Shown here in pieces: positions 9,607-32,223 of a DNA stretch of 64,000 nt. The stretch's first letter is position 1, and every line of letters begins with the position of its first letter. A program made the translations under genes and the position numbers. The stretch comes from Mesorhizobium sp. M1E.F.Ca.ET.045.02.1.1 (GTDB lineage Bacteria > Pseudomonadota > Alphaproteobacteria > Rhizobiales > Rhizobiaceae), in the NCBI RefSeq assembly GCF_003952485.1, contig NZ_CP034447.1, positions 372,001 through 436,000 on the forward strand, read 5' to 3'. The notes beneath the pieces are model-generated. The model saw only the letters and a program-made list of their open reading frames with translations. It had not been told where the DNA came from and made no database searches.

Positions 9607-9713
9607 TGTATTTTCCCTTTTCTAACGTATCGCGAGGGTGGCATGCGAAGCCGACATCCTGCATAAGAAGGCCAATTCTCACTTCTCACAAACAGAGAAT
9701 GTAGATCGGGGGC

Positions 9714-9728
9714 ATCTCGCCGGGAGAT
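9714..9728. promoter_or_regulatory. ATCT-N7-AGAT palindrome (candidate LysR operator)
   Basis: The sequence is ATCTCGCCGGGAGAT, of T-N11-A and ATC-N9-GAT form, within a slightly longer CATCTC/GAGATG repeat. It lies 108 bp upstream of the PotD-like gene start at 9606. The same pattern occurs at 12777, 22533 and 32209. Confidence 0.55.
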
Positions 9729-10164
9729 GGGGAAGCTTGCGAGCCGACCAAACACCCACGCAGGGAGTATTTTTTGCAGAGCCTTGCTGCAACTGGCGGT
9801 TAGGCAGTTCGAGTTTCTGGCTGGGTACTCAGGGAATGTGGTCAGCACTTACTAGTCAGGTAGTCCGCTGATCGTCTCGAACAGTTGACGAGACGTGCAA
9901 ACTGTCTCCGCTCGGTCGAGTGACGGATGGCCACGTAGTCACGCGTATCGTTCTGCTTCCGGTTAGTGCTGCCAATCGTATTGGGAACCTCCTTCCCGCT
10001 GACGGATGATGAGGCGGTGTCCAATGTGCGGTAGCGGTCACGCGGCAGAGTATCTGCCGCAAAGCCGAGGAAGCAGGATGTCAATCGCAAAGCAGTCCAG
10101 CTGCGAACTTCGACCACAGGGCTCCCCACCAAGTGAAGTCCAAAGTCACCAATCAACCCCAACC
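9729..10164. other. Intergenic stretch with no supported gene
   Basis: Short ORFs on both strands show no recognisable family. The segment separates the CoA-transferase/ammonia-lyase pair from the PotABCD-type operon. Confidence 0.35.
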
Positions 10165-11349
10165 TTAACAAGTTCGACTTGCACGGGAATCGTTTGCGCT
10201 AGTTGGTCGAGCGGTATTCGTGGAGGCGCCGAACTCTTTGCGCAAAGCCTCAGAATGGGCTCCCATGGCGGGAACGGGTCGCAACAGCGGAGCTTTTTCT
10301 CCGTCAAAGATCGCCGCGGGCGCAATCATTTCGATTACTCCCGACGGCGTTGCGACCGATAGCCGTCGCAGATGTGGATGTTTGGAGACGTGCTCTACTT
10401 GGTTGAGGCGTCCGTAGGCCAAACCTGCCGCCTCCAATTCGGTCATTGCTTCGTCGCTCGATAATTCGGCGAAGCGCTGGACAACAATCTCATCCAACGC
10501 CGCCCGGTTGCCGAGCCGCTTCATATTATCTGCAAAATCTGGACGGCGGGTAAGTTCAGGCTGCTTGAGAAACTTGGCGCAGAAGTTGGCCCATTCTCGG
10601 TCATTCTGGACGGAGAAAATGACGTCCTTCCCATCAGCGCAACGGTAGGCCCCATACGGCGCGAGAGAGGGGTGATTTACCCCCGCTCTCATCGTTTGGT
10701 AGGCACTGTAATCAAACTGCAGCACCGGAACGTTCATCCAGTCGGCCACGGCGTCAAAGAGCGAGACCTGAATCCCGGTTCCCCTGCCAGTGCGCTCACG
10801 TTGGAAAAGCGCTTGCAGGATCGCGCTGTGTGCAGTCATGCCGGCCGAGATGTCACAAACCGAAACGCCAACCCGCGCCGGCCCATGCTTCGTCCCCGTT
10901 ATGGCGCAAAGCCCTGTCTCTGCCTGCACGATAAGGTCGTATGCTTTCAAATGGGAATAAGCTCCAGCATCGCCAAACCCGGATATGTCGCAGGTTATCA
11001 AGCGAGGGAAGCGCTGACGAAGCTCGTCAGAACCAAAGCCGAACTTGTTGATACTGCTGGGCCTGAGATTTTGGATGAAAACATCGGCTCCAGCAACCAT
11101 AGCGTCAAGAATCGCGCGATCCTCGTCTGCCGTCAGGTCAAGGCAGATCGACTCCTTTCCGCGGTTTAGCCATACAAAATACGCGCTCTGGCCTTGCACA
11201 AGCTTGTCGTAATTTCTTGCGAAGTCACCATTGGGGCGTTCGACCTTAATAACACGCGCGCCGGCATCAGCAAGCCGCGACGAGGCATAGGGAGCCGCCA
11301 CCGCCTGCTCTACAGCAACAACAGTAATACCTTCGAGAGAACTGTTCAT
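10165..11349 (-). CDS. Family III CoA-transferase (CaiB/BaiF), possible mesaconate CoA-transferase
   Basis: Transfers CoA between carboxylic acids in the cytoplasm. The 394 residues fit the family; the nucleophilic Asp is expected at residue 166 in GVSVCDISAGM, and the N-terminal block (AAPYASSRLADAGARVIKVE) is typical. The start codon overlaps the stop of the methylaspartate ammonia-lyase gene (ATGA, 11346-11349), so the two are translationally coupled. Because the lyase produces mesaconate, mesaconate or a related C5 dicarboxylate is the best guess for the acceptor; this is inference from context. Formyl-CoA, succinyl-CoA and carnitine CoA-transferases belong to the same family. Confidence 0.88.
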   Translation of the reverse strand: MNSSLEGITVVAVEQAVAAPYASSRLADAGARVIKVERPNGDFARNYDKLVQGQSAYFVWLNRGKESICLDLTADEDRAILDAMVAGADVFIQNLRPSSINKFGFGSDELRQRFPRLITCDISGFGDAGAYSHLKAYDLIVQAETGLCAITGTKHGPARVGVSVCDISAGMTAHSAILQALFQRERTGRGTGIQVSLFDAVADWMNVPVLQFDYSAYQTMRAGVNHPSLAPYGAYRCADGKDVIFSVQNDREWANFCAKFLKQPELTRRPDFADNMKRLGNRAALDEIVVQRFAELSSDEAMTELEAAGLAYGRLNQVEHVSKHPHLRRLSVATPSGVIEMIAPAAIFDGEKAPLLRPVPAMGAHSEALRKEFGASTNTARPTSANDSRASRTC

Positions 11350-12629
11350 GCAGATTCCGCGTTGGCGTCCTGGACGTCGTTCCGGGAGCGTCGATAGTTG
11401 AGAGCGGCGAGCAGCCTGCTCTGCTCATTGCCGACAATAGAAATGCCTTCATCGACGCCCATCCCGGGCTTTGCCAGCATCATGTCAGCCTGTGTTGCCA
11501 CTGCCACGTTCGCCGAGGCTCTTGCCGACAAGTCGGTCTCGGTGCAGCTGCCGCCGACATACGCCCATACGCCGTGTTCTTTGCAGGCCAGAACGGCCCA
11601 GGCCGTGTCGGCGATCGAACCGACGTCAGGCATCTTGATTTGAACTACATGTGCTGCTTTCGCTTCGGCGAAACGCCGGATGTCGTCAAGGGTGTTGCAG
11701 TGTTCGTCGACTACCAGACGGGCGTCGGAGCCCCGGGCGTCGAGAAGGTCGACAATTTTCGCGTACTCGTTTAGTTGCGCATCGGTTGACCCGAAGTCTG
11801 CCGGGCACTCGACATGCAGTCGGAAGCCGGGCACGTCATCTGCAAGCCGCGCCATGAAGTCCGCGATTTTTCCGGCTTCAAGCCCAATTTCCAGACCGAT
11901 CCAGCCGTAGACGTCGAAGTGCAGGATAGGATGATACCCTGGCTCCCCGATTTCTGTTATCCGCCTCCCGACCCATTTCACGAACTCTCGGAATGTTGCT
12001 CCCGAGGGGCCGAACTTCTCCCGGGTGTTGATAAGCCCGTGCGGAAGCACATCGACGGACTTGAGGATCATCTTGTCGACGTTGATCTCCCTGGCATCTC
12101 CACTTTGGGCGTAGATGGGCACACGCCTCTCTGGCAGAGGCAGGGAAAACTCCGAGCAAATGACCTCGGCTAGGGTGGTCCGCGCAACGTGTGCGGCAGC
12201 ACCGAGCAGCGCTTGGCTCACGCCATACTCGATCGCAAGCGGAAGCCGCTTTCCATCGTGATAGGCAAGGACATCGTCGCACGCACCCAGAAAATTCGAC
12301 AAATCAGCGGATAAAAGTCGCGGAACAACGACAGATCTCGCGAGTGCTGCAATTGCGTCAGTCTGGAAAAGAGAGTCGCGACCGCCTGTGCCTGAATACT
12401 GAACACTCATCATGTCCCCCCAGACGATCGCATCGTCCGACAGGACAAGGCCAAGACTGACGGACCGGGAGGGCATTCGGATAGTTTCAAAGCCGGATGT
12501 CCGAGGTGCCCCTACATACCGGAAACCATCAGTGGCGACGCCTGCTCGAATCGCTGCTTGATCATCATAGAAAAAGCTACCATTTCCCGGCGCCAGGATA
12601 ACATCTCTTACTTTGAGAGCAGTTGCCAT
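11346..12629 (-). CDS. mal: Methylaspartate ammonia-lyase
   Basis: Enolase-superfamily enzyme (EC 4.3.1.2) that removes ammonia from threo-3-methyl-L-aspartate to give mesaconate. The 427 residues carry all key features in nearly the same positions as the Citrobacter/Clostridium enzymes: His197, Mg ligands Asp239 (HFDVYGWIG), Glu274 (HVECP) and Asp308 (VVDEHCNT), catalytic Lys332 (QIKMPDVG), and the GGSCTETDLSA and KPGMGVDEG blocks. No glutamate mutase gene (mutS/mutE type) is in the window, so methylaspartate may come from outside or from another route. First gene of a two-gene operon with the CoA-transferase, divergent from a LysR gene, with an operator-like palindrome between them. Confidence 0.93.
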   Translation of the reverse strand: MATALKVRDVILAPGNGSFFYDDQAAIRAGVATDGFRYVGAPRTSGFETIRMPSRSVSLGLVLSDDAIVWGDMMSVQYSGTGGRDSLFQTDAIAALARSVVVPRLLSADLSNFLGACDDVLAYHDGKRLPLAIEYGVSQALLGAAAHVARTTLAEVICSEFSLPLPERRVPIYAQSGDAREINVDKMILKSVDVLPHGLINTREKFGPSGATFREFVKWVGRRITEIGEPGYHPILHFDVYGWIGLEIGLEAGKIADFMARLADDVPGFRLHVECPADFGSTDAQLNEYAKIVDLLDARGSDARLVVDEHCNTLDDIRRFAEAKAAHVVQIKMPDVGSIADTAWAVLACKEHGVWAYVGGSCTETDLSARASANVAVATQADMMLAKPGMGVDEGISIVGNEQSRLLAALNYRRSRNDVQDANAESA

Positions 12630-12776
12630 GATAGCGCACCCAATTCTTCGACGTCGTTAATCAACTGTAGCGACTTCGAGGAAGCAGCGGTTCTGACGCG
12701 GCGGTGCCTCCCCCTTCGCGGTGCAGTATGCCCAGCGGGGCCGGATACACGCCAATATAAAATCGGCTTTCAAGCC

Positions 12777-12791
12777 ATCTCGTTTCGAGAT
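12777..12791. promoter_or_regulatory. ATCT-N7-AGAT palindrome between mal and the LysR gene
   Basis: ATCTCGTTTCGAGAT is a perfect 6-3-6 palindrome of T-N11-A form, 148 bp from the lyase start and 72 bp from the LysR start. A divergent LysR/target pair with a T-N11-A box between them is the standard arrangement for this regulator family, which makes this the reference site for the other copies. Confidence 0.65.
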
Positions 12792-12812
12792 AATGTCGAG
12801 GATAGCCGTTGA

Positions 12813-12827
12813 GAACCCAACGGGTTC
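12813..12827. promoter_or_regulatory. Second palindrome upstream of the LysR gene
   Basis: GAACCCAACGGGTTC is a perfect 6-3-6 inverted repeat centred 36 bp from the centre of the 12777 site and 36 bp before the LysR start. It could be a second regulator half-site or an autoregulatory operator; its sequence differs from the ATCT/AGAT type. Confidence 0.4.
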
Positions 12828-12863
12828 GGAACGTCACGAACAGCGGCTCCCCCAAGGGACACC

Positions 12864-13805
12864 ATGGAACTGAGACAACTGAAATATTTCGTCGGCGTGG
12901 TGGATGCGGGTAGTTTCACCAAAGCTGCAGAACAATTGAACGTGGCACAGAGTGCGCTCAGTCACCATGTCCGACAGATGGAGGAAGCTTTCGGCACGCA
13001 GCTCCTGGTCCGCGAAAGAACCGGAGTGACGGCTACGACCGCCGGGACGAAACTTTTAGACCACGCACGCATGATCTTGCGCCAAGTCAAACTCGCCGAA
13101 GAGGAATTGACGAGCAAAGCGAAATCACCTGCCGGCGAAGTGACGATCGGGATACCGTCCGGTGCAGCGCGCGTCATGGTGACGGAACTCCTTGCGTTGG
13201 CCAGAGAACGCCTTCCGAAGGTTTCCCTCAAGATTGTCGAAGGGATGAGCGGGTTTATCGAAGAGTGGATGACTGCCGGTCGCTTCAATCTCGCGATCCT
13301 CTATAAGAACGGCGAGAGTATCGGCAACTCGACAGTGCTGGCCCGAGAAGAATTTTGCCTTGTGGTGCCTCCGAACCAGCCACCATTCGAAGACACGATC
13401 CGCCTGTGTGACCTGCATTTCTATCCCTTGGCTGTGCCGATGGGCGCCAACAACGTTCGCCGTTCCGTGGCGGACGTCGTGGCGCAGCACGGATGCACGC
13501 TGGATGTGCGATTTGAAGTCGATTCTCTGTCGACTATTGTCAGTATGGTGATGGATGGAAAAGCATATTCGATCTTGACCCCTTCGGCCATACAACGTGA
13601 GGTCTCTCTCGACCAAGTTCGAACTGTGCGAGTTGTCGATCCGGTGATTACCCGATCTGTAGTTCTCGCAGTGAATCCTAGGGACGAGCGGTCAGTGGAA
13701 GTCGCCGCAGTACGCACACTCATTCCCGAAGTTGTGCACCAGCTAGCTCAGAGCGGCAGATGGCCTTTGATTCTTCCGGCAGTTGAGCCGGCGCTCCACT
13801 CGTAA
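12864..13805 (+). CDS. LysR-family transcriptional regulator
   Basis: DNA-binding regulator of 313 residues. The N-terminal winged helix-turn-helix (MELRQLKYFVGVVDAGSFTK through LNVAQSALSHHVRQME) is canonical, followed by a periplasmic-binding-like effector domain. The style of the N-terminus resembles Nac/CatM-like members. AAGGGA precedes the ATG. It is transcribed away from the methylaspartate ammonia-lyase operon and probably controls it and itself. Recurrence of its candidate operator at other promoters suggests a wider regulon. The effector is unknown; mesaconate, methylaspartate or a CoA-pathway intermediate are guesses. Confidence 0.92.
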   Translation: MELRQLKYFVGVVDAGSFTKAAEQLNVAQSALSHHVRQMEEAFGTQLLVRERTGVTATTAGTKLLDHARMILRQVKLAEEELTSKAKSPAGEVTIGIPSGAARVMVTELLALARERLPKVSLKIVEGMSGFIEEWMTAGRFNLAILYKNGESIGNSTVLAREEFCLVVPPNQPPFEDTIRLCDLHFYPLAVPMGANNVRRSVADVVAQHGCTLDVRFEVDSLSTIVSMVMDGKAYSILTPSAIQREVSLDQVRTVRVVDPVITRSVVLAVNPRDERSVEVAAVRTLIPEVVHQLAQSGRWPLILPAVEPALHS

Positions 13806-13819
13806 CTGACTAAGCCTTG

Positions 13820-15158: not shown

Positions 15159-15217
15159 CTAGCTCTTCGGCCCAAGGCGCTACCGCTTCGTCTGACGCAA
15201 GAATCTAATCAGCGATG

Positions 15218-16411: not shown

Positions 16412-16655
16412 CCTAGTTTCCCTCAGCGGCTTCATATCGAAGACTCAAGTTATTTGTACTTCAGGCTAAATCGCGGTCGAGGGAGAACACGGTCTGGCCT
16501 GACGGTGAAACCGCCCCGCAAGCTGCCCAAACTGCTTGCGTTTCTGCGGATCCGACGCCCGGCTCGTCCGCGGGACAGGTATTGATTGGAGGTTCACTGG
16601 GAAACGTGCTCAACGAGCTGGCCGCTCTTTTGAAGCGTTTGTCCTTTGGCATACT

Positions 16656-18719
16656 TCATGAGAGGGTCGCGACCGAGGGGGCACTTTGCACCGAACGCCT
16701 CGTGCTAGCACCGCCCTTGTTTTGTAGCTGAATGCGCATGAGATCTTTCGCACTGATGTGGCAACGGATGAAGTGGCCGGGCTCGGCCTCGGTAACTGGC
16801 GGCTCGGACACCTCGCAGATCCCGCCAATCTTTCGCGGGCATCTGCTTTGGAAGACGCACCCGGGCGGCGGGTTGGCGGCGGAGGGACTCTCGCCGGTGA
16901 GGCGGATACGGTTGGTTTGAGTGCCTCCTATGCTCGGGACAGCGGAAAGAAGCGCCTCGGTATATGGATGGTTTGGCCCTCCGAATACACGCTCAGATGG
17001 TCCCATCTCCATAACTCGGCCCAGATAAAGGACCGCAATCCGGTCTGAGAGGTATCGCACGACCCCTAGGTCGTGGGAGATGAACACGTAACTTACCGCC
17101 CGGGCTGCTTGAAGCTCAGTGAGAAGGTTGAGGATTGCTGCCTGGACCGAAACGTCAAGCGCAGAAGTAGGCTCGTCGCAGACTACGACGCGAGGATCGC
17201 CAGCGAAGCTTCTCGCTATGGCCACGCGCTGCTTGAGCCCCCCAGAAAGTTGCCTCGGGCGCAAAGTTAGATGTCGAGGCGACAATCGGACCGCCTCAAC
17301 AAGATTGTCGAGACGCTTAGCCAAGTCGGTTCCCCGAAAGCCTCCGAGCCTGCGCAGTGCGCGACCAATGATACGTGCGACGGAGTGGGAGCGGTTCAAG
17401 GCCGAGTCTGGGTTTTGGAACACGATCTGCACCGCCTTTACCTCGTCCTCCCGTCGCCGCTCGAGACTACCGGCGAGGGGTCTGCCGTCGAGCTCAATGC
17501 TTCCGCCGGGGTCGGGCGGTACCAAGCCCAGGAGCATTCGGGCGAGCGTGGTTTTGCCCGAGCCCGACTCACCAACCAGGCCGAGTGTTTCGCCTGCCTG
17601 CAAGCTTAGTGAAACGTCGGTTACCACTCGGATGGCATGGTTTCCTTGACCGTAGGTCTTCGAGAGATTGCTAACCCGAAGTATCTGCGCGGCTTCGGAT
17701 GGAGGCTTCGGAAGTACGTCGCCAGCCTCTATGCTGGGCGGAAGGTTAGCCGCCCGATCCGGGTAGTGGCAACGCACGAGCCGGCCGCCGCAGTCCTGTA
17801 GTTCAGGGATTTCTGCGCGACAGCGGCCGTCGGCGAGAGGACAACGCTTGACAAAGGGACAGCCGGAAAGCTGCGCGCCGGGCGGAGGTAGGAAGCCCGG
17901 AATAGACTCAAGCAGCCCATGAGTTTTTGTCTGCCCAGCATGCGGCATGCAACGCAGAAGTGCGACAGTGTAGGGATGACTCGGTGAACCGAATATGTCG
18001 CGTGCAGGCCCTTCCTCCACAAGCATCCCGGCATAAAGGACCCCAACCCGGTCACACATTTTAGCCACTACCGCGAGATTGTGGCTGATGAATAGGATGG
18101 AGGCGCCGATTTCATTCCGCAGATCAGCGACAAGGTCGAGCACCTCGGCTTCTACGGTGACGTCAAGACCGGTGGTCGGCTCGTCAAGAATCAGCATTGT
18201 CGGATCGTTTGCCAGAGCCATGGCGATCGCGACTCGCTGCTGCATCCCGCCTGAAAGCTGATGAGGATAGCGCTGCATCACTGAATCAGGATCGGCGATC
18301 CGCACCTTCTTCAGCATTTCGACCGCGCGAGGTTCGCGCTCTGCCGGCGGTACCCCCATCACTTCAAACACCTCCGCTAGCTGGCGGCCCACCTTTAGCG
18401 AAGGATTGAGTGCTTTACCGGGATCTTGGTAGACCATCGAGACCTTTTTTGCGCGCAGGCTCCGAAGCGCTTCAGGCCCAAGCTGCATGACATCAGCACC
18501 GTCGAGGTTGACCGATCCGCCGGTAATCTTGCCGTTACGCGGAAGATAGCGCACAACAGTGAGTGCCACCGTGGATTTGCCACAGCCGCTTTCGCCGACT
18601 AGCCCGTAAGCCTCTCCCGGTGCAATTTGCAAACTGACGTCGCGCACCACGGCGTGCTCCCGCTCCCCAGACCGGTACCCGACAGAGAGGCGATCCAGGG
18701 AGAGAGTCGGTTTAGTCAT
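16656..18719 (-). CDS. Fused Dpp/Opp ABC transporter ATPase (DppD-DppF in one chain)
   Basis: A 687-residue protein with two complete ABC modules. Module 1 has Walker A GESGCGKST (about 42-50), signature LSGGMQQR and Walker B LILDEPTTGLD; module 2 has GESGSGKTT, LSGGLKQR and VVCDEPTSALD. Each is followed by the cysteine-containing oligopeptide-transporter C-terminal region (FVKRCPLADGRC and FQSRCPRKIGGIC). Fusion of the D and F subunits is common in Hyphomicrobiales. A strong AAGGAG precedes the ATG, and the gene overlaps the end of the upstream permease by 8 bp. Confidence 0.93.
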   Translation of the reverse strand: MTKPTLSLDRLSVGYRSGEREHAVVRDVSLQIAPGEAYGLVGESGCGKSTVALTVVRYLPRNGKITGGSVNLDGADVMQLGPEALRSLRAKKVSMVYQDPGKALNPSLKVGRQLAEVFEVMGVPPAEREPRAVEMLKKVRIADPDSVMQRYPHQLSGGMQQRVAIAMALANDPTMLILDEPTTGLDVTVEAEVLDLVADLRNEIGASILFISHNLAVVAKMCDRVGVLYAGMLVEEGPARDIFGSPSHPYTVALLRCMPHAGQTKTHGLLESIPGFLPPPGAQLSGCPFVKRCPLADGRCRAEIPELQDCGGRLVRCHYPDRAANLPPSIEAGDVLPKPPSEAAQILRVSNLSKTYGQGNHAIRVVTDVSLSLQAGETLGLVGESGSGKTTLARMLLGLVPPDPGGSIELDGRPLAGSLERRREDEVKAVQIVFQNPDSALNRSHSVARIIGRALRRLGGFRGTDLAKRLDNLVEAVRLSPRHLTLRPRQLSGGLKQRVAIARSFAGDPRVVVCDEPTSALDVSVQAAILNLLTELQAARAVSYVFISHDLGVVRYLSDRIAVLYLGRVMEMGPSERVFGGPNHPYTEALLSAVPSIGGTQTNRIRLTGESPSAANPPPGCVFQSRCPRKIGGICEVSEPPVTEAEPGHFIRCHISAKDLMRIQLQNKGGASTRRSVQSAPSVATLS

Positions 18720-19569
18720 TGAGTGCTCCTTGCAGCCCGTCGGCCACCAAATTTATCCCGATCACAAGGCTGGCAATGGCTAGCGCATCAAACACCACGG
18801 CCCACCAATAACCTCCGCTGATCATTGAGTAGTTGGTCGATATTGACAGCCCCCAGTCAGGTGATGGCGGCTGTAAGCCGAAACCGATGAAGCTCAGTGT
18901 GGCGACTGCAAAGATCGCATAGCCAAGACGCACCGTGAATTCGACGAGGATGGGAGGGAGTATGTTGGGAAGAATTTCGACGAACATGATGTGCATGGAA
19001 TTCTCATGACGGAGCTTGGCAGCCGCGATGTAATCGAGTTCACGCTCTGCGAGAACAGTAGAGCGGACAGTGCGGGCGATAACAGGGGCGAAAGACAGAC
19101 CGATGACGATGATCACCGTTGTTTCTGAGGTACCCAGCGCGACGATCGCAAGTAGCGCAACAATGACCGACGGCATCGCCATCATCGCTTCGTTAAAGCG
19201 CGAGACGACGTCGTCTACAACACCTCGAAAATAGCCGGTTAGAAGACCGAGTACTGTGCCAACACCAGTCGCCAAGATCGTCGCCAGAGGCGCTACTGTA
19301 AGAATGTCTCGCGAACCGACAATGACCCGGGAAAAAATGTCACGGCCTAGTTGGTCAGTCCCGAACCAATGTTCTGCAGAGGGAGGTGCCAGCGCATTCA
19401 AGATATCGTCAGCCAGCGGATCATACGGCACAAGGTGCCGGCCGAGAACGGTACAAAGCGCCCAAAAAAGAACTATCGTCATGCCCGTCACAAAGGAGCC
19501 GGAGACGAACAGCGCCGCGAACACTTCGTGGATACGGCGTTGGCGGTGACTAGCGTCAACATCAGTCAT
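18712..19569 (-). CDS. Dpp/Opp-type ABC permease (DppC-like)
   Basis: Inner-membrane permease of 285 residues with an N-terminal hydrophobic segment, the HWFGTDQLGRDIFSRV block typical of DppC/OppC, and a membrane domain with a final GFGLQPPSPDWG motif. The ATG at 19569 is preferred to a longer frame (19641) because it overlaps the upstream permease stop by 8 bp, in keeping with the tight packing of the operon. Confidence 0.92.
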   Translation of the reverse strand: MTDVDASHRQRRIHEVFAALFVSGSFVTGMTIVLFWALCTVLGRHLVPYDPLADDILNALAPPSAEHWFGTDQLGRDIFSRVIVGSRDILTVAPLATILATGVGTVLGLLTGYFRGVVDDVVSRFNEAMMAMPSVIVALLAIVALGTSETTVIIVIGLSFAPVIARTVRSTVLAERELDYIAAAKLRHENSMHIMFVEILPNILPPILVEFTVRLGYAIFAVATLSFIGFGLQPPSPDWGLSISTNYSMISGGYWWAVVFDALAIASLVIGINLVADGLQGALND

Positions 19570-20518
19570 TCGCCGTCTCCATCTGAATACGTGGGTTGAG
19601 AATGGAGTACAGGATATCGGCGAGCAAAGTCGCCACGGCATAGGTGATGCCTATAATCAGTACGCCCGCCTCCAGCATTGCGAAATCCTTGGCCTTGGCT
19701 GCCCTGAAAATCAGCGATCCGATCCCTTGGTATCGGAACAGCGTCTCCACCACGATAAGGCCGCCTATAAGGTAACCGGTCTGGCTAGCTATGACCGTAA
19801 TCGTGGGCAGCAGTGCGTTCCTTAGTACGTGCCGCCAGATGACACGGCGCCAAGTCAGCCCCTTGAGGACGGCAGTGCGAGTATAGTCCGAGTCGAGCGC
19901 TTCGATCATGCTTGCGCGCGTCATTCGGGCAATGTAGCCGAACAGGACGAGAACGAGCGGAATGGCGGGCAAGATCACATAGTAGAGTTGGGTTAGGGGG
20001 CCCGCACCTTCCGGCCAAGCAGCAGAAATCGGTAGCCAGCGCAGCCAAACGCCAAAGATCATTATCAGCACAACGCCACTAACGAATTCCGGCATCACGG
20101 TCGCCGACAGCCCCCCCATGCTAATAACTCTGTCGATTGGCCTGTCAGCATTTAGGGCAGCCAGCACTCCTCCTAGAATGCCGAGCGGAACGACGAGCAT
20201 GAAGGCCACCAACGCAAGCTTTAATGAATTGCCGAGGGCCTGCACTATGAAGGGCGCGACGGGCACCCCATAGATGTATGACTGGCCCATGTCGCCTTGA
20301 AGGAAATGCCATATCCACGTGCCGTATTGCTCGACGATCGGTCGATCGAGGCCAAACTGGCGATTCAGCGCATCTACGGCCTCCTGATCGGCCAAAGGGC
20401 CAAGGATAGTTCGGCCCACATTGCCGGGCAGAACCTGTCCGACAAAGAACACGAGGAGGCTCAGCAAAAACAGCGTGGTCAACGAAAAGGCGAAGCGCCT
20501 ACCTAGGAAACGGCTCAT
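19562..20518 (-). CDS. Dpp/Opp-type ABC permease (DppB-like)
   Basis: Inner-membrane permease of 318 residues, with the N-terminal helix of DppB/OppB proteins, LDRPIVEQYGTWIWHFLQGDMGQSY-type periplasmic region and the final ADILYSILNPRI end that is characteristic of this subunit. It follows the binding-protein gene after about 90 bp and overlaps the DppC-like gene. Confidence 0.92.
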   Translation of the reverse strand: MSRFLGRRFAFSLTTLFLLSLLVFFVGQVLPGNVGRTILGPLADQEAVDALNRQFGLDRPIVEQYGTWIWHFLQGDMGQSYIYGVPVAPFIVQALGNSLKLALVAFMLVVPLGILGGVLAALNADRPIDRVISMGGLSATVMPEFVSGVVLIMIFGVWLRWLPISAAWPEGAGPLTQLYYVILPAIPLVLVLFGYIARMTRASMIEALDSDYTRTAVLKGLTWRRVIWRHVLRNALLPTITVIASQTGYLIGGLIVVETLFRYQGIGSLIFRAAKAKDFAMLEAGVLIIGITYAVATLLADILYSILNPRIQMETAND

Positions 20519-20609
20519 TGGATCGTGCCCGGATGAGGTGGCGGAAAGATTGCTAATTCGGTCGGCCTGGTGACCAAGGCCGACCGACCGCGCATGTGCC
20601 TTACCCGCA

Positions 20610-22274
20610 TTATGCCTTGCCCGCCTCCTGCAGGAAAAGTTGCCCCATGGCGGTCGGTTGGACGCCTACGATATGTTTCGCCATCGCTGTCAGATGGTCG
20701 AAGAAATAACCGTAGAGCACCGGCGTCTCCTCAAGCAAAAGCCGCTGGATTTGCCCTGCAACTTGGCGCTGCGATTCCAGATCAAGAGTTCCGATGTAGG
20801 ATTTGGCCAGGGCGTCATATTCTCTGTTCTGGAGATTTGCTGAATTCCAAGAGCCGTCGCTTGTGAGTATCGCTGTTAAAAAGACGTTCGGCACCCCGCG
20901 GTGGCCGAAGTCAGCTATACCCATGACCGAGTCCCGCCACGGCGATTTGCCTCTTACCGCATCGCCGTAGAAAACATTCCGGTCCATAATGTCCAAAGTC
21001 AGATCGATGCCGATCTCCTTTACCCAGCGCTGGATCAGCTGCGCATAGGCCGGGATTTCCAGATACTGCTCGGTTGTAAGCGCTACTTGGAAGCCATTCT
21101 CCTTCCCTGCCGCCTTCATCAGTTCTCTGGCCTTTCGGATGTCCTGCTTGCGCTGCGGCACGCTCGGGTCCGCGGAGGGATAGACCGAGGCGAGGGGACT
21201 GTCGTTCCCGATAATGGCACGGTCTTTCATTAGACCCGTCTTGAGCTTTTCGCGGTCGAGACATAGGGACACCGCCTGACGGACGCGCGGGTCCTTGAAC
21301 ACCTCACTGTCGCATTGCATGTGAACTGGCTGATGCGCGGAAGACTTTATGGTCATAACGTTGACGCTAGGATCGTTCAGTAGCGCCACGCCGGCGAGCG
21401 CGGGAAGCTTGTTGATTATGTCTACCTCTCCAGCCTGCAACGCGAGTATTTGAGGCTGGATATCAGCGAAGAAGGTAAATTCTGTCCTTGCTGGCAGCGA
21501 CTTACGTCCCCAGTACTCTTCATTCCGGATGAAGCTCGCGCCCACATTTCGGGTGTATTTGTGCAGTCTAAACGGTCCGGTACCGTCCCAAGCCGTCTCG
21601 TAGTGCCCGGGATAGCTGGCAGGCAGAATGATCGCATTATAGTTGTCTGACGAAACCAGGTAAGGAAAGTTGCCGTTCGGACCGTTGAGATGGAACTCGA
21701 CGGTGTAATCGTCCACTTTGCGAGTAGCGCCCGACTGAAGGATGCCCTTGAACACCGAAAGTGCGTTCGAGGAATTCTTGGGATCAGCCAGGCGGTCCAT
21801 GGTGGCGACGACATCGTCAGCTCTCATCTCGCCGCCAGAATGAAATTTGACGCCCTTGCGCAACGTGAAGGTCCAGACGGAGCCGTCCTCATTGGACTTC
21901 CAGCTTGTCGCAAGCGAGGGCCTTAGCAGCAAGTCGGGCCCATCCACGCAGAGGAACTCGCCGACCTGCTGGAGCATCAGGAACGCACCATAGTCACCCA
22001 CCAGGACAGGGTCGATCTCCGCCTCCGGCGCTGTGCAGGCAACCCGAATGGTTGCGCCTGGCTGGCCCGCGGCCCGAGCTACGGACGGCGCGGCGCCCAA
22101 GCCAGTTGCCAGCCCGACCCGGCCAAGAAAGGGCAGCGACAGGCCAAGCAAACTGCCATGCCGCAAAAATTCGCGACGACTTACGCGACCATCGACGTAC
22201 CCATCTATTAAGTGGTTTTCGGGAGGCGTAAGGCCAGCGCGAAGATTGTCGAGCCAACTAGCATTTCGTGTCAT
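20610..22274 (-). CDS. Family 5 ABC solute-binding protein of the Dpp-type operon
   Basis: Periplasmic binding protein of 554 residues. The signal region has a twin-arginine motif (SRREFLRHGSLLG) preceded by an unusually long N-terminal stretch of about 32 residues. The body has the WTFTLRKGVKFHSGG segment and the C-terminal fold of DppA/OppA/NikA relatives. A strong AAGGAAGGGA precedes the ATG. It heads the operon running to the degenerate amidase; a 15-bp palindrome lies 259 bp upstream (22533-22547). It is not a close paralogue of the binding proteins at 42-1643 and 24355-25953. Confidence 0.92.
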   Translation of the reverse strand: MTRNASWLDNLRAGLTPPENHLIDGYVDGRVSRREFLRHGSLLGLSLPFLGRVGLATGLGAAPSVARAAGQPGATIRVACTAPEAEIDPVLVGDYGAFLMLQQVGEFLCVDGPDLLLRPSLATSWKSNEDGSVWTFTLRKGVKFHSGGEMRADDVVATMDRLADPKNSSNALSVFKGILQSGATRKVDDYTVEFHLNGPNGNFPYLVSSDNYNAIILPASYPGHYETAWDGTGPFRLHKYTRNVGASFIRNEEYWGRKSLPARTEFTFFADIQPQILALQAGEVDIINKLPALAGVALLNDPSVNVMTIKSSAHQPVHMQCDSEVFKDPRVRQAVSLCLDREKLKTGLMKDRAIIGNDSPLASVYPSADPSVPQRKQDIRKARELMKAAGKENGFQVALTTEQYLEIPAYAQLIQRWVKEIGIDLTLDIMDRNVFYGDAVRGKSPWRDSVMGIADFGHRGVPNVFLTAILTSDGSWNSANLQNREYDALAKSYIGTLDLESQRQVAGQIQRLLLEETPVLYGYFFDHLTAMAKHIVGVQPTAMGQLFLQEAGKA

Positions 22275-23056
22275 TGACGTTCCCTTCCTTATTTCTCTTT
22301 ATCTGTCTTCACTGACGTCTGACTGCTCTTGTCGGCGGAGGCGAATGTATCACCTTCAATGCGTGTACTTGACAGCGACTCGCCCGGAATTCGACTATGG
22401 TCATCGGCTTCATTGGTCCGCACTAGTTTAACCGATCGATCGAACAGCCGACGCCGCAGGCAAGTGCTGTTCGGTCCGTCGACCGTCAAATATGGGTCCC
22501 TATTGGTCAAATACTGTTTCACTATTTTTGCTATCTCGCAGCCAGATAGATCTTGGAAGACGGTGACGCCCGCCTGCGTCTCTCTTGCTCTCTTGATTGA
22601 GTTCGAGCTTGAACGGCGCAAGAGTAAGCCCTTTGACACCATGCGCTCAGAGGCCGAGCGGGCGATGAAGCGCGCGTCGTTGTCCCGCCGCCGGGCCGGT
22701 GGACTAAGAAATGGCGCTCACGGATGGGGACCCCTCCCTCCGCTATCGACGAGGTAGCCTGGCCAACATGGAGCAAGATAAAATACTCCCGCCCGGTTTC
22801 GTCCAAACACAAGCCTTGAAGCGGCAGATCCTCGGCCGTCGACTGGACGCTGCGGTGCCTGCGCCAATAGCTTTTTCACGGGGCTCGACGAGTCCTTCGA
22901 GCTAAGATTGCTTTTTGAGGCGTTCCGAGCGCAAGCAGATCCAAAAGGCGATCAGAACGTCATCGGCGTTTCGACCACAATCGGTACGAATGCTCAAATT
23001 CTTCCCAACGTCTCTGGAATCTGGACTGCTCGACGCGAGCGTGCCCGTCGTGCGGG
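22275..23056. other. Upstream region of the Dpp-type operon, no supported gene
   Basis: About 780 bp between the binding-protein start and the end of the serine hydrolase gene. Short frames on both strands have no recognisable family. The palindrome at 22533-22547 is the only regulatory feature found. Confidence 0.4.
22533..22547. promoter_or_regulatory. ATCT-N7-AGAT palindrome upstream of the Dpp-type operon
   Basis: ATCTCGCAGCCAGAT, extended to CTATCT/AGATAG, 259 bp before the binding-protein ATG at 22274. It matches the pattern of the sites at 9714, 12777 and 32209. Confidence 0.5.
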
Positions 23057-24307: not shown

Positions 24308-24354
24308 CAAGAGACCCCCAGCCTCACGTTTGTCTATCGCAACCAGCGCGCTCC

Positions 24355-25953: not shown

Positions 25954-26104
25954 CTTCTAGTTCCTCCCCTTTGAGCCACTGGCGCGGTTAATCCGCACCT
26001 ATCAGTGCTGTTGACGCTACGCGTGAGGCATTTCGATCTCAAAAGGGCAGACCCTCATTCTCCCGCGAATGACCTGACCACGAGACAACATCCTGAAATG
26101 GGTA

Positions 26105-26185
26105 GCATCTCGGCACGGAGAGCTTGCGCCAAAATGCGGTGGCTACTGAAATGCGAGCCGCACACGGGCGGCGTGCTTTGAAATG
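26105..26185 (-). promoter_or_regulatory. Upstream block shared with the copy 1 binding-protein gene
   Basis: Counterpart of 1777-1860, about 150-230 bp before the start at 25953. It holds a near-palindrome ATCTC-N6-GAGAG at 26107-26122, which resembles the LysR-type sites but with one extra spacer base and one end mismatch; this part is not preserved in the copy 1 block. Confidence 0.4.
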
Positions 26186-26199
26186 TGGTCAGCATCTGC

Positions 26200-26945: not shown

Positions 26946-27629
26946 TCACACAGGGGGACTGACTTCTATAAGCATCTTTGCGAGAGTTACGAAGTCTGCG
27001 ACCAACAAGCCAGTGTCGCGCCGAACTGCTTCTGCTGCGAGTGTGAAGCCGGCGCATTCGAAAACGAGTGCACCTACCGTTGGCTCCGCATTCAAAAGCG
27101 ATTTCGCCCCCGCCAGTACATCGGCTGTGATAAGGTCGGGAGTGGCGTCGGGGAAGGTGTCTGCAAGCCGCTGCCACGTTAAAGAGCCTTCGATACCGCC
27201 AATTGCTACGTCTATCTCGGTTGACGACCATCCGGCCCCAATGAGATGGCGTTCAGCAAGTTTGGTAGAGTCATAGGTCAGAATTCCTACTTTGCGCCCC
27301 AAAGGCAGACTCTTGGCGACAAGCGGCACGAGCGCGAGGCTCGACATCACAACAGGTACAGAAACCGCTGCCGCTACTTCGGCTTGATGCAGTGAGCTGA
27401 AGCCGCAGTTGGTGGTTATGGCTGCCACACCCTCGCTCTCCAGCTTTTGTGCTCCACGGATGTAGGCATCCTTTACTGATCGATCGCCAGCCACAAGCCT
27501 GGCCACGTTTGCACCTTCGACGGTCAGGCACTTGATCGGAAATTGATGTGTTTCGGGCGCGCACAGCGCTCCGGGATGACCGATCGGTCTATTTTCGAGT
27601 TCCAAAATCCCCAAAGTCTTGTTATTCAC
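26946..27629 (-). CDS. Asp/Glu racemase-superfamily protein, copy A
   Basis: 227 residues with the two active-site cysteines expected of the Asp/Glu/hydantoin racemase and maleate isomerase superfamily: Cys75 in ITTNCGFSS and Cys192 in VFECAGFTL. It starts with GTG at 27629, with AGGAG about 8 bases upstream. Members racemise amino acids or hydantoins, isomerise maleate, or decarboxylate arylmalonates; the choice cannot be made here. It lies about 200 bp downstream of the DUF2817 and M24 genes on the same strand. A second, divergent member is at 36136-36843. Confidence 0.85.
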   Translation of the reverse strand: MNNKTLGILELENRPIGHPGALCAPETHQFPIKCLTVEGANVARLVAGDRSVKDAYIRGAQKLESEGVAAITTNCGFSSLHQAEVAAAVSVPVVMSSLALVPLVAKSLPLGRKVGILTYDSTKLAERHLIGAGWSSTEIDVAIGGIEGSLTWQRLADTFPDATPDLITADVLAGAKSLLNAEPTVGALVFECAGFTLAAEAVRRDTGLLVADFVTLAKMLIEVSPPV

Positions 27630-27826
27630 GGCGCGTCTCCTGATCGGAACATTTTTCTAACCGTTGCCTTAGATTGCACCGGGCGGCTTGGCTCGACTGC
27701 TGCCGTGACGTGGTAGATGTTGTGGCAGTGCCTTTGGCGCGCAAGCTAGGTACACACACCAATCGCCCTCCCTCGCGCCACTATCATGCCTCACGTGCAT
27801 GACGTCGCTCGATAACGCGCCAACCT

Positions 27827-28930
27827 TCAAAACTGTGCAGGCCACTCAAACATTTGGCGATGCACCTGGCGGCTGCGCCAAATGATCATTTCCCGCCAGT
27901 CCGCTGATCTCGGATCGTAGTGTTCGCGAAGACGTAGGCGGATAGCTCCTGCGAGTTTGGGGTCTACATCTGAATTTTTTGCCAACCAGTGGTCCTCTCG
28001 CAGGACACGTCGACCGTTCTCAGGATCAAACGTGCCGAATTCAAGCGCCACATACACGTGCCGTTCACCAAGCAGCCGCTGCCAAAATTCATCAATACAG
28101 CCACGTATCGGCACTGACGACGACGTCCCGAGATCCGGCGAAGTGACCGATCGACCGAACATTGCCAACGCACGCTCATATCCAGCCAAGCCAGAGGGCT
28201 GCTCAGTCTGAAGCTCTCCGTAGCCGAAGGGGCCAAGACCCGTATGTGTGTCAACAATCACTACCCGATCTCGTGACTTCAGATCAAAGTCCTCGGCAAT
28301 ATTCTCTAGCATTAAACGAGAATGGCTGGGACCGAACCCTCCAAAGAACACACCATTGGGGTGGCTGTACTGGCCAGCCTTCCTCGCTGTTTGAAACGCG
28401 ACTTCGCCTCTTTCCTTGCGGAATTCCTCAATAGCCCTCTCGGAAGCCTCGAACACCGGCCCCTCGACTTCTGCCGGGACCAGGTAATCTGCAAGTGCGT
28501 CGTAACCGGGATTGGCTGGAACAGGTTGCGAAAAGTCTACGAAGTTTCGATTTAGATCGCAGCCCTCCTCCGTCACGCGGCGATTCCATGCAAACCCGTA
28601 AGGGTTGAGTGCATGTATCATCAGCATCGCTTGGCCCGGCGTCAGCGAGTCCGCAATGCCCCTCCGCGTCCAGTCCACCTGTCCAGCGGAGCCGCAGTAG
28701 CCCTCGACGCCGTGAGTGGCCGAGATCAATATGCCGAGATGATGTGCTTCTGGATCGCCAAACCAAGCGACGTCAGTGAACAGTTCCTCGCCTCCGGGTC
28801 CCCGGGCTGGCGATTTATATGATCTGGCTGACTTGGCTGAATCAGCGAGCTTCAGGAACTTCTCGCGCGCTTCGAAATACGTCTCTGAGAAGCTCTCTGA
28901 GACGTCATGCAGTATCTCGTCTCGCATCAT
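27827..28930 (-). CDS. DUF2817 (M14-like) zinc peptidase or deacylase
   Basis: 367 residues. The likely zinc ligands and catalytic residues are His73 and Glu76 in SATHGVEGYCGS, the substrate-binding Asn-Arg pair in EEGCDLNRNF, His229 in VDTHTGLGPFGYG, and the base Glu297 in VALEFGTFD, an arrangement like carboxypeptidase A/AstE-type hydrolases. The start is directly after the stop of the M24 gene, with AAGGA in the end of that gene, so they are co-translated. A role in removing an acyl or amino-acid group from an imported compound is plausible. Confidence 0.85.
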   Translation of the reverse strand: MMRDEILHDVSESFSETYFEAREKFLKLADSAKSARSYKSPARGPGGEELFTDVAWFGDPEAHHLGILISATHGVEGYCGSAGQVDWTRRGIADSLTPGQAMLMIHALNPYGFAWNRRVTEEGCDLNRNFVDFSQPVPANPGYDALADYLVPAEVEGPVFEASERAIEEFRKERGEVAFQTARKAGQYSHPNGVFFGGFGPSHSRLMLENIAEDFDLKSRDRVVIVDTHTGLGPFGYGELQTEQPSGLAGYERALAMFGRSVTSPDLGTSSSVPIRGCIDEFWQRLLGERHVYVALEFGTFDPENGRRVLREDHWLAKNSDVDPKLAGAIRLRLREHYDPRSADWREMIIWRSRQVHRQMFEWPAQF

Positions 28931-30109
28931 TCAGTCCTTAACAATCAGCTCACGAGCGGTTCTGGTAAGCGCCTCATAACCACCGTTAGTAACAACAAAC
29001 GACTGGGTGATCGTGATGCCTGTGTCTTTGAGCCAAAGGCCGGCCATCAAGTGGAGTGCCACCCCGGGCTGAAGAACTGTGTGATCTCCTCGACGAATAC
29101 TTGCCGTACGCTCGCCCCAGGTCGGCGTATAGGCGACTCCTATCGAATATCCCAACCGGTTCTCTTTCTCGATGCCGTGAGCGCTCATAGTCTTCCGCCA
29201 TGCCAGTTCGATCTCTTCGCATGTCGCTCCCGGCCGCACCACATCAAGGGATGCGTCGATGCCTTCAATGACGTGGGACGCCAAATCACGGTAACTTTGA
29301 GGCGGTTCACCAAAGTAAATCGTGCGGCTCATCGGAGCATGGTAGCGTAGCCGGCAGCCGGAAATTTCGATATTTGCAACAGAGTTGGGGTCAATAGGGC
29401 GATCACTGAAAATCGGGTGAGCTTCACGAGCTCGTGCGCCGAACCCCATATGAGGCGGGCTAGTCGCGGGAAGCCCACCGAAAGACTCGGTTCCCGACAT
29501 TTGTGCGTGGTAGATGGCTGCCGCCACGTCGCACTCTCTTACACCGGGAGCGGCGACTTCAACAGCGCGAGCCATCATGCGCTCGGTGATCTCGCCTGCT
29601 TGTCGCATATATGCGACTTCTTCGCCGCTCTTCACAAACCGCACCCAGTTCACAAGAAGTTCGGCGTCCTTGAAGTGAACGTTGGGCATTGCCTTCACAA
29701 ACTCCGCGTGGTCTCGAGCCGTGTAGTAGTAGGCACCCATCTCAACTCCCACTACATTCGCGCTTGGCGATTCCTGCAGTATCATTTCGGCAATGAACTG
29801 TGACGCGTGCCGATCCGCAGCTTGAACATAGACATCGGGATACGGGATTATGCGGTCGGCTGGGAGGTAGGTCGTGACATGCGCGGTTGCCGAGTCAACC
29901 AGTCTCCCAATCCACAGGGGCAACTCAACATCTTGGAACACGATTAATGCCTGAACAGTATAAAATGACCAAGCGTCGTATCCACTTAGATAATATAAGT
30001 TCGCTGGCTCCGTGACGACAAGTACATCTAGACCAACTTCCGCCATACGCTTCTTTACGCGGTCCAGTCGCGACCTGTACTCAGCTTCGGAAAAATTTAG
30101 AACGCGCAT
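28931..30109 (-). CDS. M24-family (creatinase/ectoine-hydrolase-like) hydrolase
   Basis: 392 residues with the N-terminal creatinase domain (VVTEPANLYYLSGYDAWSFY) and the pita-bread C-terminal domain. The region that carries metal-binding Asp residues in prolidases reads NIEISGCRLRYHAPMSRT (about 246-263) and lacks them, as in metal-independent creatinase and, as I recall, ectoine hydrolase. Thus a non-metal C-N hydrolase is more likely than a true Xaa-Pro peptidase. It is followed at once by the DUF2817 gene and then the racemase-like gene, a trio that recalls the ectoine-degradation set (DoeA, DoeB, EutA). An imperfect LysR-type site lies 158 bp upstream. Confidence 0.85.
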   Translation of the reverse strand: MRVLNFSEAEYRSRLDRVKKRMAEVGLDVLVVTEPANLYYLSGYDAWSFYTVQALIVFQDVELPLWIGRLVDSATAHVTTYLPADRIIPYPDVYVQAADRHASQFIAEMILQESPSANVVGVEMGAYYYTARDHAEFVKAMPNVHFKDAELLVNWVRFVKSGEEVAYMRQAGEITERMMARAVEVAAPGVRECDVAAAIYHAQMSGTESFGGLPATSPPHMGFGARAREAHPIFSDRPIDPNSVANIEISGCRLRYHAPMSRTIYFGEPPQSYRDLASHVIEGIDASLDVVRPGATCEEIELAWRKTMSAHGIEKENRLGYSIGVAYTPTWGERTASIRRGDHTVLQPGVALHLMAGLWLKDTGITITQSFVVTNGGYEALTRTARELIVKD

Positions 30110-30579
30110 TCAATCACCCAAAAGAGTTTTCGACTGGCAAAAACTGGAGAGACCAGCGCTGACAGGTCGAGGCTTGCCATTGCTTTGCCGAGCGTTACGG
30201 TGCGGCGACAGCGCGAACTGTATGAATGCAACCGACAAAGTCCAATACAGATACGAGGGTCCGTTCATCGCGAATCGAGATTGAAGTAGGTAACCGGTGC
30301 TGCGGCCCTTCGATTATCTGCCTAAGGGGCCCTACTCGGAGTCTTTGACATCTGCACCCCGTGGACGAGCGGCTCCGGATAAGCCGAAGGTCTCGCCCAG
30401 GCCATGGGTGTTCGACTTAGCCGCGGAAGTACCAAGACCGGACATCTACGGGCACAAGCCCGCGATTAGCCGTGCAGAGAAGTGATTTTGTTGCTTGATG
30501 GAGAACTTATGCGACAACATCGCGTTGGTCACGAACATTGCTAGCATTCAGATTGGAAACTGTGGAGGGGGATCGTCAG
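30110..30579. other. Intergenic stretch with one candidate operator
   Basis: About 470 bp between the intact amidase gene and the M24 gene; no coding region is supported. It contains the candidate site at 30267-30281. Confidence 0.4.
30267..30281. promoter_or_regulatory. Imperfect ATCT-N7-AGAT site upstream of the M24 gene
   Basis: ATCGCGAATCGAGAT keeps ATC-N9-GAT but differs from the strict pattern at one base. It lies 158 bp before the M24 start at 30109. Confidence 0.35.
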
Positions 30580-32004
30580 CTACCCTGCTCGAACCTTTGG
30601 TCGCCGGACGCTCCAGGGTCTTGCCTCCTCCAGATCACGTGCAACACGGACCAGTGTGGCCTCGTCGCCAAACCGGCCGACGATCTGAAGACCGATCGGC
30701 AGCCCGCTGGCGCTTTGCGCCAAAGGCAACGACACCGCAGGTTGTCCGGTGACGTTGAATACGCCAGTGTACTGACATATCGCCGTATCCGCTTCCACAT
30801 ATTCCTCTGCGGAGACCGCCGGGTTTGTCGCAGAATAGATGCCGCCATGCGGCACGGCCACGATTGGCATTGTGGGCGTCAGCAGAATGTCGAAGGCATG
30901 GATCGCCTCGCCCACACGGAAACGCATTCTGCGGAGCACCTCTTGTAAGTCCACCGCTCGGGAAGGAGGTAAACTGCGGCTAAATTTATAACGTTTAAGA
31001 CTGACCGGCTCCAAGGTGTCCGCAGTGATAGTGCGCTCCATGGCCCGCGCCGCTATTTCGAGCGAACTCGCGGTCGTTGGGACGAGATAAAGTTTGCTGT
31101 AATCGACGGGCTCATATGGCGGGTCGATGTCTGTTACCATGTGCCCCATCTCCTGCAGAAGCGTTGCCGCCCCCTCAACAGCGTGCAGCACCTCGTGATC
31201 GAGGTTAACGCGCCCCCAACTCGTTCTCGCGACCCCGACCCGAAGACGACCGGTGGGCTGTGAGAGCTCCTCCACATAAGGACGGTTCGGCTGGACAATG
31301 ATAAAGGGATCACCGGGATGGGGACCGGAAAAGACGTCCAGCGCGGCGGCCATATCACGCACTGTCCGACATAATACAAACTCCCGAACTAGGCCGGACC
31401 CTGCGTCCTGACGGTCCGGGCCGCCGGAAATGCGTCCGCGGGAAGGGTTCAGCCCGACAAGACCGCACCACGAAGCCGGGATGCGAGTTGAACCGCCGCC
31501 GTCGCTGCCATGGGCAATAGGAGTAATGCCGGCGGCCACCGCCGCTGCCGCTCCTCCTGAAGAGCCTCCCGCAGAGCGTGCCAAATCCCATGGATTGCGG
31601 GTGATGCCATTGAGACTGGATTCGGTCATGACCGTAGACCCAAGCTCGGGCGTTGTTGTTCTTCCGACACACCGGAGACCTCCGGCTCGGGCTCGACGAA
31701 AAAAATAGCTGTCGATCTGGGGACGAAAGCCTTTGAACAGCCGGCTTCCCTTTTCCTGGAGGCGGCCAGCTTCGGTGGCCCCGATATCCTTGCGCAAGAA
31801 AGGCACGCCATGGAAGGGCCCACCGTCCGCGCCGGCAACATTTTCAGCATCTTCGTAAAACTCGATGACAGCGTTGACGCGCGGATTAACCTCATCATAA
31901 GCCTCGCGAGCTAGCTCCGTTAATTCGAGAGGCGTCACTTCGCCGGCGCGTGAGAGAGAGGCCAAACCGGTGGCATCGTGCTCGACGTATTCACTTAGCT
32001 TCAT
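30580..32004 (-). CDS. Amidase-signature family amidase (intact)
   Basis: 474-residue cytoplasmic amidase hydrolysing a carboxamide. The Ser-cisSer-Lys triad is visible: Lys72 in PFLRKDIGAT, cis-Ser148 in SAGGSSGG, nucleophile Ser172 in GSDGGGSTRIP. GAGAGGAT lies about 8 bases before the ATG. It is the intact paralogue of the core-deleted protein at 15218-16411. It is the first gene before the M24-DUF2817-racemase set on the same strand. An exact ATCT-N7-AGAT site lies 205 bp upstream. Relatives include GatA, 6-aminohexanoate-cyclic-dimer hydrolase and indoleacetamide hydrolase; the substrate is unknown. Confidence 0.92.
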   Translation of the reverse strand: MKLSEYVEHDATGLASLSRAGEVTPLELTELAREAYDEVNPRVNAVIEFYEDAENVAGADGGPFHGVPFLRKDIGATEAGRLQEKGSRLFKGFRPQIDSYFFRRARAGGLRCVGRTTTPELGSTVMTESSLNGITRNPWDLARSAGGSSGGAAAAVAAGITPIAHGSDGGGSTRIPASWCGLVGLNPSRGRISGGPDRQDAGSGLVREFVLCRTVRDMAAALDVFSGPHPGDPFIIVQPNRPYVEELSQPTGRLRVGVARTSWGRVNLDHEVLHAVEGAATLLQEMGHMVTDIDPPYEPVDYSKLYLVPTTASSLEIAARAMERTITADTLEPVSLKRYKFSRSLPPSRAVDLQEVLRRMRFRVGEAIHAFDILLTPTMPIVAVPHGGIYSATNPAVSAEEYVEADTAICQYTGVFNVTGQPAVSLPLAQSASGLPIGLQIVGRFGDEATLVRVARDLEEARPWSVRRPKVRAG

Positions 32005-32208
32005 TTGCAGCTATCCTCTCACCCTTTGCCTGCTGTCGGGCAGAAGGCATTGGCACGCACAGCGCGATTTTGAATTGTTAATCAGAGCTCGATGCACCGG
32101 AGGTAGCCGTTCTCCAACAGGAGTGCAGGGGCAAGATTTCGGCCTGAACCAGTACCTACAATCCATCCCGAGTCCGGCGCTGGTCAAATATAGTTTCGCG
32201 ATTGATTT

Positions 32209-32223
32209 ATCTGAAATTCAGAT
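32209..32223. promoter_or_regulatory. ATCT-N7-AGAT palindrome upstream of the amidase
   Basis: ATCTGAAATTCAGAT is a perfect 6-3-6 palindrome of T-N11-A form, 205 bp before the amidase ATG and within the divergent region shared with the CitE-like gene. Confidence 0.5.

Follow-up and report, generated by a model that had tools for sequence, protein, structure and literature searches.

A two-part promoter element before uptake and breakdown genes of a Mesorhizobium island and its predicted LysR-type regulator

Genes of the island and copies of the palindrome

The DNA analysed here is a stretch of 64 kb (the window) of the genome of Mesorhizobium sp. M1E.F.Ca.ET.045.02.1.1 (contig NZ_CP034447.1, positions 372,001 to 436,000). 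It contains an island of transport and catabolic genes with a gene encoding a LysR-type regulator (lysR) beside that of a methylaspartate ammonia-lyase (mal). Six promoters of the island carry an element with the palindrome ATCT-N7-AGAT, which, as judged by comparison between genomes, is very probably the binding site of the neighbouring LysR-type regulator. Genes and elements are collected in Table 1; the codon model was too weak for calling genes in the island.

Table 1. Genes behind the sites and composite elements (ORF, open reading frame; ABC, ATP-binding cassette; CoA, coenzyme A; bits of composites are weight-matrix scores)
Feature	Position	Strand	Evidence or remark
LysR-type regulator	12864..13805	+	LysR-family models; best NCBIfam match NAC, 183 bits, below cut-off 309
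mal, methylaspartate ammonia-lyase	11346..12629	-	TIGR01502, 593 bits, cut-off 286
caiB, class III CoA-transferase	10165..11349	-	Oxalate, glutarate and mesaconate CoA-transferase models, each below cut-off
citE-type C-C lyase (candidate citramalyl-CoA lyase)	32816..33685	+	HpcH_HpaI; citE 145 bits, RipC/Ccl 134 bits, below cut-off
PotDBCA-type ABC importer	5708..9606	-	potA, potD by models; potB, potC by ORF reading
potD	8560..9606	-
potB	7597..8526	-
potC	6800..7600	-
potA	5708..6745	-
Dpp-type ABC importer, dppA-B-C-DF	16656..22274	-	dppA, dppDF by models; dppB, dppC by ORF reading
M24-DUF2817-racemase genes	26946..30109	-
M24 hydrolase	28931..30109	-
DUF2817 protein	27827..28930	-
Asp/Glu racemase-like protein	26946..27629	-
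Amidase, longer copy	30580..32004	-	Pfam Amidase, 275 bits
Composite before potD-type operon	9689..9728	-	26.9 bits, weakest of six; palindrome 9714-9728, TGTTTG 19 bp downstream
Composite before mal-caiB	12752..12791	-	40.4 bits; palindrome 12777-12791
Composite before dppABCDF operon	22508..22547	-	39.5 bits; palindrome 22533-22547
Composite before M24-DUF2817-racemase genes	30242..30281	-	29.6 bits; palindrome 30267-30281, one mismatch
Composite before amidase gene	32185..32223	-	43.7 bits; palindrome 32209-32223; N18 spacer
Composite before citE-type lyase gene	32716..32755	+	32.4 bits; palindrome 32716-32730; missed by the sequence-only reading
Composite outside window, before aldehyde dehydrogenase	genome 355700-355739		Palindrome 355725

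The mal product aligns with solved beta-methylaspartases over almost its full length. The CaiB and CitE proteins resemble the CoA-transferase and the citramalyl-CoA lyase of C5-dicarboxylate routes, with scores below the curated cut-offs. For the M24 protein the nearest model was that of the ectoine hydrolase DoeA; it reached 404 bits against a cut-off of 613 and was rejected as a true ectoine hydrolase.

An earlier reading of the sequence alone (the sequence-only reading) had listed four exact copies of the palindrome, before the pot operon, mal, the dpp operon and the amidase gene, and a copy with one mismatch before the M24 gene. All of them were found at those positions, and its list of exact copies lacked a fifth one, which precedes the in-frame start codon (ATG, 32816) of the CitE-type gene by 85 bp. 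Dinucleotide shuffles of the window gave 0.67 exact sites as the expectation and none of 100 shuffles reached five, in agreement with the claimed excess over chance. In the whole genome (7.35 Mb) there are 34 exact sites, with a density outside the window of about 0.25 per 64 kb. Of the 29 outside sites, two were followed individually: the one at 355725 has the second half of the element described below, and the one at 4119481 is next to the gene of the second LysR copy of this genome. The site at 355725 first appeared to be genic, but it is read as a promoter site because the aldehyde dehydrogenase, judged by its homologs, starts about 125 bp further downstream.

Structure of the promoter element

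Read toward the gene, the element has the form ATCT-N7-(A/C)GAT-N18/19-TRTTKG, and the six window sites all point at their gene. The spacer between both halves is N19 at the window sites and N18 at that of the amidase gene. The second half is TRTTTG or TATTGG, and its TTG constitutes a -35-like element. Between the window sites only the arms and this -35 part agree, the spacer and the flanks being different. The genome as a whole has 12 matches to a relaxed composite pattern, seven of which lie within 355.7-404.8 kb, and it has none to the same pattern read backwards.

The relaxed pattern was derived from these same sites, which makes its count circular. For this reason, a weight matrix of 44 columns was built from 43 thinned composite sites located outside the island. 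Its application to the window gave six matches, from 26.9 to 43.7 bits, which are the six promoters and nothing else; the next non-overlapping match in the window scored 5.3 bits and the maximum in 40 Markov-simulated windows was 15.8 bits. Since 13 of the columns were fixed by the search pattern, the 31 free ones were also scored alone. In this less circular test the six sites were all in the top 0.14% of window positions, four of them in the top 0.01%, the weakest being the potD and M24 sites (top 0.12% and 0.14%, respectively). A spacer variant at 26107-26122, which the sequence-only reading had placed before a second binding protein, was dropped because it has no second half and is absent from the matrix matches. 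According to these alignments, the palindrome by itself is not specific; it forms the core of a conserved promoter element made of two parts.

The position of the element relative to the promoter was studied with 42 thinned sites. At 61-66 bases from the palindrome's first base, outside the search pattern, there is a peak of information which is -10-like: at the best of the 16-19 bp spacings, at least four of the six bases of TATAAT are matched in 22 of the 42 sites, versus 10% in shuffles, and none of the sites has five. By the position of this block, the dyad is centred near -65. As described in the accessible part of PMC4834489, LysR-type transcriptional regulators (LTTRs) bind a palindrome with T-N11-A centred near -65, which overlaps the divergent promoter of the regulator, and their further contacts reach downstream of the -35 box. 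The layout found here is like that of LTTR catabolic regulons such as that of ThnR, as far as that source presents them, with a T-N11-A dyad centred near -65, a second part at -35 and a site beside the regulator gene. Unlike ThnR-type regulons, at least six promoters of the window and one outside seem to share the operator, and the second part is well conserved, whereas secondary contacts are reported as non-conserved in the text seen of PMC4834489.

Association of the element with the LysR-type gene

A match to the LysR protein at E <= 1e-70 was present in 53 of 150 genomes (own genome included), 49 of them being close and near-full-length. Of the 90 same-genus genomes under comparison, 49 have the regulator; it also occurs in some other genera, and it is 100% identical in Mesorhizobium sp. 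M00.F.Ca.ET.216.01.1.1. For mal and for lysR, 28 diverged loci each, from among the highest-scoring, were read. In 26 of the 28 lysR loci citE adjoins lysR, with caiB further on; in the 20-kb loci of congeners mal comes next after caiB, an order different from that of the window, where lysR is divergent from mal. In 27 of the 28 loci, all but L073, lysR is preceded at 39-50 bp by the palindrome, which is exact in 17 of them, has one mismatch in nine and two in one; a further composite follows lysR in 25. In the window, the palindrome of the mal promoter also precedes the start of the divergent lysR, by 72 bp. Concerning mal, a composite is found upstream of the gene in all 28 loci, at no more than 100 bp in 22 of them, at 0.4 kb in one and at about 1.15 kb in five.

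The palindrome also follows more distant copies of the regulator. The second LysR copy of the own genome (4.12 Mb, 68% identity) has an exact palindrome 47 bp upstream, and G054 and G085 have it (exact and with one mismatch, respectively) 54 and 47 bp before a LysR with 42% identity. In addition, a search of the family yielded the LysR of three further genera (E <= 1e-110), and all three loci have elements before mal and after lysR.

The number of composites per genome was compared between genomes with and without the regulator. The comparison covered 86 of 119 counted genomes; 29 (G150-G178) had no LysR status, and G054, G060, G082 and G085, with a diverged or partial LysR, were set aside (1, 0, 1 and 0 sites). 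The mean was 4.04 composites in the 49 genomes with LysR and 0.70 in the 37 without it, and two or more composites were present in 48 of the former and in six of the latter (rank test, 8e-15, relatedness being ignored). Together with the palindrome at lysR and the result in the three genera, this contrast supports the proposal of the sequence-only reading that the regulon is centred on the protein encoded at 12864-13805. The features of a LysR regulon that can be read from DNA, i.e., the family of the regulator and its place by a target operon, the T-N11-A dyad, the -65/-35 geometry and a site at the regulator gene, are all present here.

Promoters of target genes were also read in loci chosen by gene (30 of dppA and 15 of amidase, not all the matches). 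The four nearest diverged dppA orthologs (73-75% identity, two of them near-identical) carry the site, with 29.6-39.6 bits, while it was present in 0 of the 24 other dppA-like loci read (69-70%), which are a useful negative control. These four promoters and the mal loci uphold the comparison of orthologous promoters that had been suggested. Three of 13 diverged amidase loci have a site of their own, placed almost as far from the gene as in the window; two of these orthologs (84% identity) are near-identical and the third has 72%. The matrix training could include three of the four positive diverged dppA sites (not that of L151) and all three positive amidase sites. Another set of 20 regions had been selected for containing composites, of which they hold 27. 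A homolog of a queried gene lies on the same strand at no more than 600 bp behind 12 of these and at 0.6-3 kb behind five; within 600 bp, the homologs were of amidase, dppA, mal, aldehyde dehydrogenase, M24, racemase or CocE-type hydrolase. Those of M24 (30-47% identity) were found in three of such selected regions. The citE relative of Phyllobacterium sophorae (70%) likewise has a composite.

Several of the data weigh against a common operator or lessen the force of the comparisons. The potD site has no comparative support, as the sole ortholog found outside the island copies (54%, in another order) lacks it. L101, outside the 28-locus set, has a mal without a strict composite in front. Ten of the 13 diverged amidase loci have no own site; two of these (G049 and G002) are downstream of a site-bearing dppA, on the same strand according to the coordinates, and eight have neither. 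Behind 10 of the 27 composites there is no homolog of a queried gene. The rank test overstates significance because related genomes are not independent. Within the window, one-mismatch palindromes are not enriched (23 versus 18 expected; 23 or more in 14 of 100 shuffles). Outside it, a crude ORF test put 15 of the 29 exact sites in open frames. The bare palindrome is consequently a weak criterion and was rejected as a genome-wide predictor. The lack of one-mismatch enrichment and the scattered genic copies would be expected if the sites were chance palindromes, selected by an eye scan of promoter regions. However, the columns outside the pattern still single out the six sites, which also recur at orthologous promoters and follow the presence of LysR among genomes, so that chance is scarcely credible as their origin.

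Another explanation is that a dispersed mobile repeat has spread through the island and that the sites are its copies and not operators. The window has transposase genes (13838-14971, 54705-55814 and 60084-61769), and the island recurs in a genome of the same genus (G150:C1:2562104-2611158, part of it in L147) with seven letter-identical composites and with genes 100% identical in the 20 kb read, which points to a recent horizontal transfer. Against a repeat, agreement between window sites is limited to the arms and the -35 part, and their alignment revealed neither longer shared flanks nor insertion junctions. Within each of four ortholog sets TRTTKG does not vary and the identity of the arms is 92-100%, values which count for less because the sites of relatives were found with the pattern and they are partly built in; the flanks are 35-40% identical upstream and 39-63% downstream. 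The distance to the -10-like block is moreover nearly fixed. A mobile repeat is therefore considered very improbable.

The palindrome could also be bound by the Lrp/AsnC-type regulator of the same gene set instead of LysR. Its orthologs were detected in 48 of the 150 genomes searched; these are all but one of the 49 LysR genomes, and the 37 others have none. This co-inheritance, a further point on the unfavourable side, means that co-occurrence cannot separate both regulators. In ectoine catabolism clusters, moreover, an asnC gene lies beside the enzymes (PMC13188858, in the part available). However, the palindrome adjoins lysR in nearly all loci, including G054 and G085, which have no Lrp match at E <= 1e-65, and a T-N11-A dyad near -65 is the usual layout of LTTRs. 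For this reason LysR is favoured, and binding by Lrp is regarded as improbable.

The element, its position, its conservation and its tie to the LysR gene are properties of the sequences compared, and they make it highly likely that the sites are the operators of one LTTR regulon run by the 12864-13805 protein, whose binding is predicted. The LysR protein would perhaps act as a tetramer, bound to the 15-bp dyad ATCT-N7-AGAT (centre near -65) and in contact also with the -35 region, where the sequence is typically TRTTTGACC, or TATTGG in front of mal. Its inducer may be methylaspartate, mesaconate or some metabolite related to them, in the presence of which it would activate mal-caiB, citE, dppABCDF, potDBCA, the M24-DUF2817-racemase genes and the amidase gene and, outside the window, an aldehyde dehydrogenase-fumarase-Lrp-aminotransferase set. 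The palindrome adjoining lysR would serve autoregulation. A palindrome noticed by eye would thus become a precise two-part operator tying scattered operons to one regulator.

Predicted pathway and its state in this genome

The scattered uptake and breakdown genes of this root-nodule-type bacterium look like one regulated set for one nutrient, and the gene list of the regulon narrows the candidates for it. We infer that the set would import and hydrolyse an amide- or peptide-like compound, giving 3-methylaspartate, which would be converted into mesaconate by the mal product, into citramalate by a class I fumarase acting as mesaconase, into citramalyl-CoA by CaiB and finally into pyruvate and acetyl-CoA by CitE. 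In the relative L094, further proteins are encoded by the operon after lysR: one resembling semialdehyde dehydrogenases, an intact class I fumarase of fused type (candidate mesaconase), Lrp and an aminotransferase of class III. The mesaconate route, as given in the portion seen of PMC4682846, comprises mesaconase, CoA-transferase and citramalyl-CoA lyase, and glutamate reaches mesaconate through glutamate mutase and mal; the set described here has the like of it in mal, the class I fumarase (a candidate mesaconase), the CoA-transferase and the CitE-type lyase. The legend of Fig. 5 of the same source places a putative LTTR gene beside mal in Enterobacteriaceae.

Unlike the methylaspartate pathway of glutamate fermentation, no glutamate mutase was found in this genome and its fumarase is present only in two pieces. 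The search for glutamate mutase (PF06368) gave one match among 101 relatives (G042, which has no LysR match) and none in the own genome (G000); on 14 control genomes it gave one match, in Haloferax volcanii, under the cut-off. Glutamate mutase was consequently rejected as the source, and methylaspartate is probably supplied from elsewhere. The methylaspartate degradation unit therefore occurs in genomes where this enzyme was not found.

The nutrient of the regulon is possibly ectoine-like. The ectoine catabolism cluster, in what could be seen of PMC13188858, comprises eutD/doeA, asnC, ssd, atf and eutA, and the present set resembles it in the M24 protein, nearest to DoeA, the racemase-like protein, Lrp/AsnC, the aldehyde dehydrogenase and the class III aminotransferase. 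It differs from that cluster, as it appears there, in the score of the M24 protein below the DoeA cut-off, in LysR replacing EnuR and in the added methylaspartate branch. A speculative and rather unlikely proposal is an undescribed route in which an imported methylated ectoine- or diaminobutyrate-like core would be opened by M24, trimmed, transaminated and oxidised to 3-methylaspartate, and then degraded through mesaconate to pyruvate and acetyl-CoA. If true, it would be a methylaspartate pathway fed without glutamate mutase. In Neorhizobium galegae, the accessible part of PMC4417242 includes fumarate hydratase and a putative 3-methylaspartate ammonia-lyase/glutamate mutase among the genes reported, without a link to this regulator. 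No description of the regulon was found in the texts accessible on Mesorhizobium or rhizobia with methylaspartate or ectoine hydrolase, subscription literature being outside the scope.

In the own genome, the class I fumarase (candidate mesaconase) is in two pieces (G000:C1:352793-353826, in L001), corresponding to residues 169-513 of the 513 of the relative's protein, and no further fumarase match at E <= 1e-10 was obtained beyond them. The aldehyde dehydrogenase reads shortened, yet the operator in front of it is kept. Because of the state of both genes, the pathway may be partly decayed in this genome or served by other enzymes.

Other genes of the island were also recorded. A shortened copy of the amidase gene (15218-16435, by model match) is directly downstream of dppDF and may be a relic of a dpp-amidase operon, given the gene order in G049 and G002. 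A protein of the penicillin amidase family (47143-49524; Pfam, 635 bits) is a further amide hydrolase of the island, with no matrix match before its gene. A second copy of the class IV aminotransferase of 4108-5193, with 100% identity, is found in the genome some 20 kb upstream of it (L001:11465-12550), which indicates a recent duplication. Finally, three ATP-grasp proteins with an L-amino acid ligase C-terminal domain are encoded at 34505-35773, 39277-40677 and 53147-54601, and relatives of them (66-70%) are near mal in three other loci (L050, L101 and L104).

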